Positions 58,643 to 59,398 of a stretch of 64,000 nt of DNA are shown here, piece by piece. The stretch comes from Smithellaceae bacterium. GTDB taxonomy: Bacteria > Desulfobacterota > Syntrophia > Syntrophales > Smithellaceae. Each line of letters begins with the position of its first letter. Position 1 is the stretch's first letter. A program made the position numbers and the translations under genes. Location: positions 25,718 to 89,717 of the forward strand of contig JAUYFM010000004.1 of assembly GCA_030690945.1 (NCBI GenBank), given 5' to 3'. Under the pieces are notes generated by a model. It made no database searches. It had not been told where the DNA came from and worked only from the letters and a program-made list of their open reading frames with translations.

Positions 58643-58709
58643 ATGGCGGAACCCAAAGAAGAAAAAATTTTTCTTATCGCTTTCTTATATTTTGACAGCA
58701 ATATTTTAT

Positions 58710-59171
58710 TTACTTCTCGAAGAACAATTCGTCTTCAATCTTGATACATCCGATAACACTCTGGGCGGCTGGACAACGAGTGATATAATTGGAGAAACAC
58801 TCTTTCGCATCGGCCACCTTTTCCTCGGTCACTTTCAGGTGGTATTTAACGCGAATGGTTGTGATCTTGAGAACGCTATTAACATTTTCAATGTCTCCTT
58901 CCACATCAGCCCAATAAAGAGTTTCCGGGGTGGAAATCTTTTTTCCGGCCATCACCGTGGCCAGTGTTCCCATCATTCAGCCTGCTGTTGCTGCAACAAT
59001 ATGATCGAGTGTTGCCGCATGCTCCTTTTCCGGTTCGACTTTGTAGAACTTCATGATCCCCCCGTGGACACCATAATAGACCGGTTCCGAAAAACCCTCT
59101 ATCATCGCTCTCCGAGTCGGTCCTTTTTCCCTGACGATTTTAATTTTTGATGTATGAACAACTTCTCCCAT
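58710..59171 (-). CDS. OsmC-like protein read through an in-frame UGA (candidate selenoprotein)
   Basis: MGEVVHTSKIKIV...TLDHIVAATAG-[UGA 58979-58977]-MMGTLATVMAGKKISTPE...ITRCPAAQSVIGCIKIEDELFFEK; both halves in one frame, AGGAGG before ATG 59171. Confidence 0.75.
58945..58964 (-). promoter_or_regulatory. Candidate bacterial SECIS hairpin
   Basis: RNA CUGGCCA-CGGUGA-UGGCCGG: 7-bp stem, 6-nt loop with GGU, starting 12 nt after the UGA. Confidence 0.6.
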
Positions 59172-59220
59172 ATTAAACCTCCTTTGATCTTTTATACCAA
59201 GTTGCATTCAAATGTTAACA

Positions 59221-59273
59221 GTAGTTCGGGTCTTTAGACCCGTTGAACACGCGAACCTAAAGGTTCGGACTAC
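59221..59273. repeat. Intergenic palindromic repeat
   Basis: GTAGTTCGGGTCTTTAGACCCG...CGAACCTAAAGGTTCGGACTAC: two small hairpins with complementary outer ends. Confidence 0.7.
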
Positions 59274-59398
59274 GTTGGTTCGTTATCCTTTGAATGCGAC
59301 TGGGTATTACCACATGTTAACTTAGCAGAAGGGTAAATGTCAATAGTCGCCTTAATCATAGTCGCCATCCTCACCGATACCGCGCCCCACATTTTGTG

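Follow-up and report, generated by a model that had tools for sequence, protein, structure and literature searches.

A split open reading frame encodes a candidate OsmC-family selenoprotein

The window, by which we mean the whole 64,000-nucleotide stretch analysed here from a Smithellaceae bacterium, contains two minus-strand open reading frames at 58977–59207 and 58710–58976. These share one frame and only the TGA at 58977–58979 lies between them. An earlier note on this DNA had described them as the two halves of a single gene that automatic annotation would misread. Both points are borne out: one frame runs through the TGA, and standard annotation cuts the gene in two. The features of the locus are as follows.

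58710–59171, minus strand: the Sec-OsmC gene, 153 codons and a TAA stop, with selenocysteine (Sec) 65 predicted at TGA; assigned from Pfam OsmC PF02566 (3.1e-9) and orthologues
59178–59184, minus strand: Shine-Dalgarno sequence AAGGAGG, identified from the sequence; orthologues have a similar one
58977–58979, minus strand: TGA codon 65, predicted Sec, in the column of the first, peroxidatic Cys of OsmC/Ohr; TGA in 68 orthologues and TGC in 2; aligned to Cys in 1nye, 1qwi and 6d9n
58945–58964, minus strand: SECIS-like stem-loop CUGGCCACGGUGAUGGCCGG, with a 7 bp stem and a 6-nt loop containing G, at positions 16–35 counted from the U of UGA
58773–58775, minus strand: codon for Cys133, in the CPAAQ motif, the counterpart of the second redox Cys in OsmC/Ohr; invariant in 70 of 70 orthologues

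The gene almost certainly starts at ATG 59171, because AAGGAGG lies just upstream and the orthologues begin at the same methionine with a similar Shine-Dalgarno sequence; the ORF-finder start at 59207 was rejected on these grounds. This start makes the Sec residue 65 and the second conserved cysteine residue 133. Translation from ATG 59171 with the TGA read as U gives 153 residues, with U65 within DHIVAATAGUMMGTLATVMAG and Cys133 within ITRCPAAQS. When queried with C in place of U, the protein matches Pfam OsmC (PF02566) at 37.6 bits against a cut-off of 27.5 (3.1e-9). That this is a genuine, intact Sec-encoding gene seems to us very nearly certain.

Orthologues conserve the TGA and are under selection beyond it

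Of 156 genomes sampled from the class, 37 had a match by protein search; by profile search, 39 of 396 sampled from the phylum did. Named orthologue records come mainly from Syntrophaceae/Syntrophales and from other deltaproteobacterial metagenome-assembled genomes. Among 70 distinct full-length orthologous genes, codon 65 is TGA in 68, spread over many genera and genomes, and TGC (Cys) in the remaining two (L077 and L078). All homologues examined have Sec or Cys in this column, which is Cys in both E. coli OsmC and Ohr, as the earlier note had expected for a redox position. The second family cysteine to which that note also pointed, in ITRCPAA, is Cys133, kept in all 70 orthologues. With 68 distinct genes sharing the TGA, resequencing would not be expected to turn it into TGC or TGT.

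The coding signal persists 3′ of the TGA, where dN/dS is ∼0.03–0.3 and nonsynonymous changes are far fewer than synonymous ones, as they also are 5′ of the TGA. This pattern indicates that the protein downstream of the TGA is under purifying selection. In several family members the gene that carries TGA at codon 65 also terminates with TGA, which excludes a general reassignment of TGA. One further locus (L084, on contig C44 of genome G010) appears to be a decayed copy of the family, with a match limited to approximately the first 26 codons.

A conserved SECIS-like hairpin and the selenocysteine machinery

The stem-loop has the features of a bacterial SECIS element, lying right after the UGA and having a small apical loop with a G; its folding energy in the window mRNA is −11.4 kcal/mol. 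Across 45 distinct genes, the codons that form the stem are nearly uniform, with Leu70 being CTG in 43 of 43, Ala71 GCC in 40 of 43 and Ala75 GCC in 42 of 44. Synonymous codon conservation for Ala, Leu, Gly and Thr in these genes averages 0.86 inside the stem versus 0.49 outside. In a comparison of 24 sequences, 97% of cells were paired in the stem and compensatory changes were seen at two pairs, while sliding the partner strand abolished the pairing. Single-sequence folding against synonymous shuffles gave a modest difference (mean z of −1.2), and the case for a SECIS element therefore rests on the comparative evidence. An Rfam scan of the window gave no match at the gathering score.

The genome examined (3.15 Mb, 69 contigs, 100% complete) was found to contain selA, selB, selD and a tRNA-Sec with anticodon TCA, the set whose presence the earlier note had proposed as a check. 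The selD gene (L018) itself encodes Sec, with a TGA in the usual place (QSAGUACKIG, with the GUACK motif).

Two orthologues appear to have reverted to cysteine

The Cys-form genes L077 and L078 cluster together inside the Sec family in the tree, and a single Sec-to-Cys change is thus the simplest reading of their history. Loss of the Sec pathway was considered as the cause and rejected, since selA is present in both Cys-form genomes (G037 and G038). The hairpin region of the two TGC orthologues folds at −5.0 kcal/mol, as against approximately −11.4 kcal/mol for the gene in the window and for most orthologues with Sec; in both TGC genes, CTGTCC replaces CTGGCC and the stem is broken. The family would therefore display a Sec-to-Cys reversal accompanied by decay of the SECIS hairpin. 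In a few genomes, both Cys-form ones among them, a second OsmC gene, of Cys type, adjoins the family gene (at ∼2503–2900 beside L077, and near L078 and L082).

The predicted fold places Sec65 and Cys133 at the OsmC redox positions

A search of the PDB with the single protein returned matches to polyketide synthases that were dismissed as spurious, and profile and fold searches were needed instead. In alignments to the family profile, the first redox Cys of E. coli OsmC (1nye and 1qwi) and of Ohr 6d9n falls in the U65 column, although each match taken singly is weak (E-values 0.04–0.4). The AlphaFold2 model has an OsmC fold with a pLDDT of 84 and a low-confidence loop at residues 42–49. Using Foldseek, its best PDB match was E. 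coli OsmC 1nye (E 2.0e-6, probability 1.00), and the matches were to OsmC/Ohr proteins throughout. TM-scores against single OsmC chains were ∼0.5, values that are probably depressed by the intertwined, dimeric arrangement of OsmC proteins.

Both redox positions of the superfamily are present in the predicted fold, with Sec65 on the central helix and Cys133 near the C-terminus. When the family is aligned to OsmC, Ohr, YhfA and NF041052 members, no column other than U/C65 and C133 is invariant. The protein resembles E. coli OsmC in fold, and U65 and C133 coincide with the two redox cysteines of OsmC; it differs in having Sec for Cys, in an identity of only ∼16% and in its N-terminal third. This N-terminal part (VHTS..R..GPTR, YGVHGGI, EHAATLDH) is unlike that of Ohr as well.

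Ohr (6d9n, 1zb9 and the copy encoded in the same genome, L001) likewise shares the fold and the two redox positions. Its cysteine is activated by Arg19 and Glu51, and its reductant is lipoylated proteins (PMC5962072). The window protein has Sec for this Cys, and the column of the catalytic Glu (10 residues before the Cys; Glu51 in the X. fastidiosa enzyme, PMC5962072) is Leu55. The protein therefore appears not to be an Ohr proper, and Ohr-type catalysis is not assured. The adjacent Asp56 is invariant and, with Glu50, is one of the nearest invariant acids; Arg14 and Arg20 are also invariant.

A clade apart from the UxxT selenoproteins

Sec-containing OsmC-like proteins have a precedent, as the earlier note had said: one with a UxxT motif was reported in the Sargasso Sea (PMC1088965) and GOS (PMC2398784) selenoproteomes, and the NCBIfam model NF041052 (OsmC_like_Se) is named OsmC-related (seleno)protein. 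The UxxT/NF041052 family and the window family both belong to the OsmC superfamily and have Sec at the first-Cys column encoded by an in-frame TGA, which is also found in the true NF041052 members of the phylum (L144, L145 and L153). The motifs are different, however, with UMMGT in the window family (UxxG in orthologues) and ULLT (L144 and L153) or UMFS (L145) in the NF041052 members. The window protein scores 14.7 bits against the NF041052 cut-off of 95, at ∼15% identity, and the best E-value among the 44 members scanned was 1.5e-5; none of the NCBIfam models scores this family above its cut-off. In the tree the two groups form separate clades, each with full support. Motif, score and tree thus all set the window family apart from the UxxT proteins already reported. 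The deep branches of the OsmC tree are long and weakly supported, and do not settle the number of Sec origins within OsmC.

Among the 119 selenoprotein families and subfamilies in a 2026 inventory, the UxxT protein is the only OsmC entry; the inventory treats a different Sec motif as a separate subfamily. By this rule, the UMMGT motif makes the window family a new subfamily. It appears to have no separate earlier description in the open-access literature, although one may exist elsewhere.

Proposed decoding and chemistry

We consider that the gene encodes an OsmC-superfamily selenoprotein in which UGA65 is read as Sec, with hydroperoxide reduction as the likeliest chemistry (probability of roughly 0.9 for this reading as a whole). 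Given the machinery and the hairpin, UGA65 would be decoded by tRNA-Sec and SelB via the downstream SECIS element, placing Sec65 on the central helix, where OsmC and Ohr have their peroxidatic Cys. In the chemistry that the fold and the paired Sec and Cys suggest, the Sec65 selenolate would reduce a hydroperoxide, probably an organic one, Cys133 would resolve the product to a selenenylsulfide and a cellular dithiol would then recycle it. From sequence and model, a Sec-based hydroperoxidase with Cys133 resolving is the function we somewhat favour. The particular substrate is put forward with less assurance: the catalytic surroundings differ from those of Ohr, with Leu55 in the Glu column and Asp56 beside it, and so a substrate other than an organic hydroperoxide has to be allowed for.

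An ordinary gene caller would agree with a reading of the TGA as a nonsense mutation or as a miscalled TGC, TGT or TGG, since the ORF is split. This is refuted by the orthologues: across many genera, 68 of 70 distinct genes have TGA at this codon and selection continues after it, making a pseudogene or sequencing error extremely improbable. We found no point in support of readthrough without Sec, such as near-cognate Trp insertion or genome-wide recoding of TGA; the two orthologues without the TGA have Cys rather than Trp in this column, as do OsmC and Ohr, family members terminate with TGA and the genome has the complete Sec machinery. Such readthrough is accordingly very improbable. The antisense ORF at 58692–59150 (plus strand, 152 aa) is open and similar openings recur in orthologues, but it begins with TTG, substitutions are synonymous in the minus-strand frame, and it is to that frame that the Pfam match, the Shine-Dalgarno sequence and the fold belong. 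There is scarcely any likelihood of it being a real gene.

A weightier alternative accepts Sec and the OsmC fold but assigns the protein a role other than peroxidase, such as thiol/disulfide chemistry, reactive-sulfur or selenium handling, binding or delivery. The absence of the Ohr Glu, the distinctive N-terminal part, the anaerobe-type lineages of the relatives and the separate Cys-type Ohr in the same genome all speak for it, whereas the retention of both OsmC-fold redox positions, including the resolving Cys in all 70 orthologues, speaks against it; on balance we think it doubtful, though well worth keeping in mind. A more specific proposal is that this is an almost purely Sec-using branch of OsmC that lacks the Ohr Glu and has an N-terminal signature of its own, and that in anaerobic lineages of deltaproteobacterial type it carries out redox chemistry other than the hydroperoxide reduction of Ohr/OsmC, acting for instance on reactive species of sulfur or selenium. 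We regard this as rather unlikely. No gene neighbour is kept beyond four loci, and the neighbourhood offers no operon partner that points to function.

With UGA65 read as Sec, the gene represents a widespread, nearly all-TGA family that standard annotation splits or loses, adds a distinct Sec-OsmC clade to the known UxxT proteins and points to a predicted selenium-based redox protein in syntrophic anaerobes.

The upstream region

A MITE-like element of ∼115 bp lies at 59194–59307 on the minus strand, inserted 22 nt 5′ of the ATG. It has inverted ends (ATACCMAGTYGCATTC / GAATGCAACTTGGTAT), TA borders and strong internal hairpins, and has 31 matches in the genome; the corresponding site is empty in the close orthologues L021 and L022. 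Just upstream of the element is a promoter-like sequence, TTGACA-18-TAACAT (59314–59343, minus strand), and the element may therefore lie in the transcribed leader.
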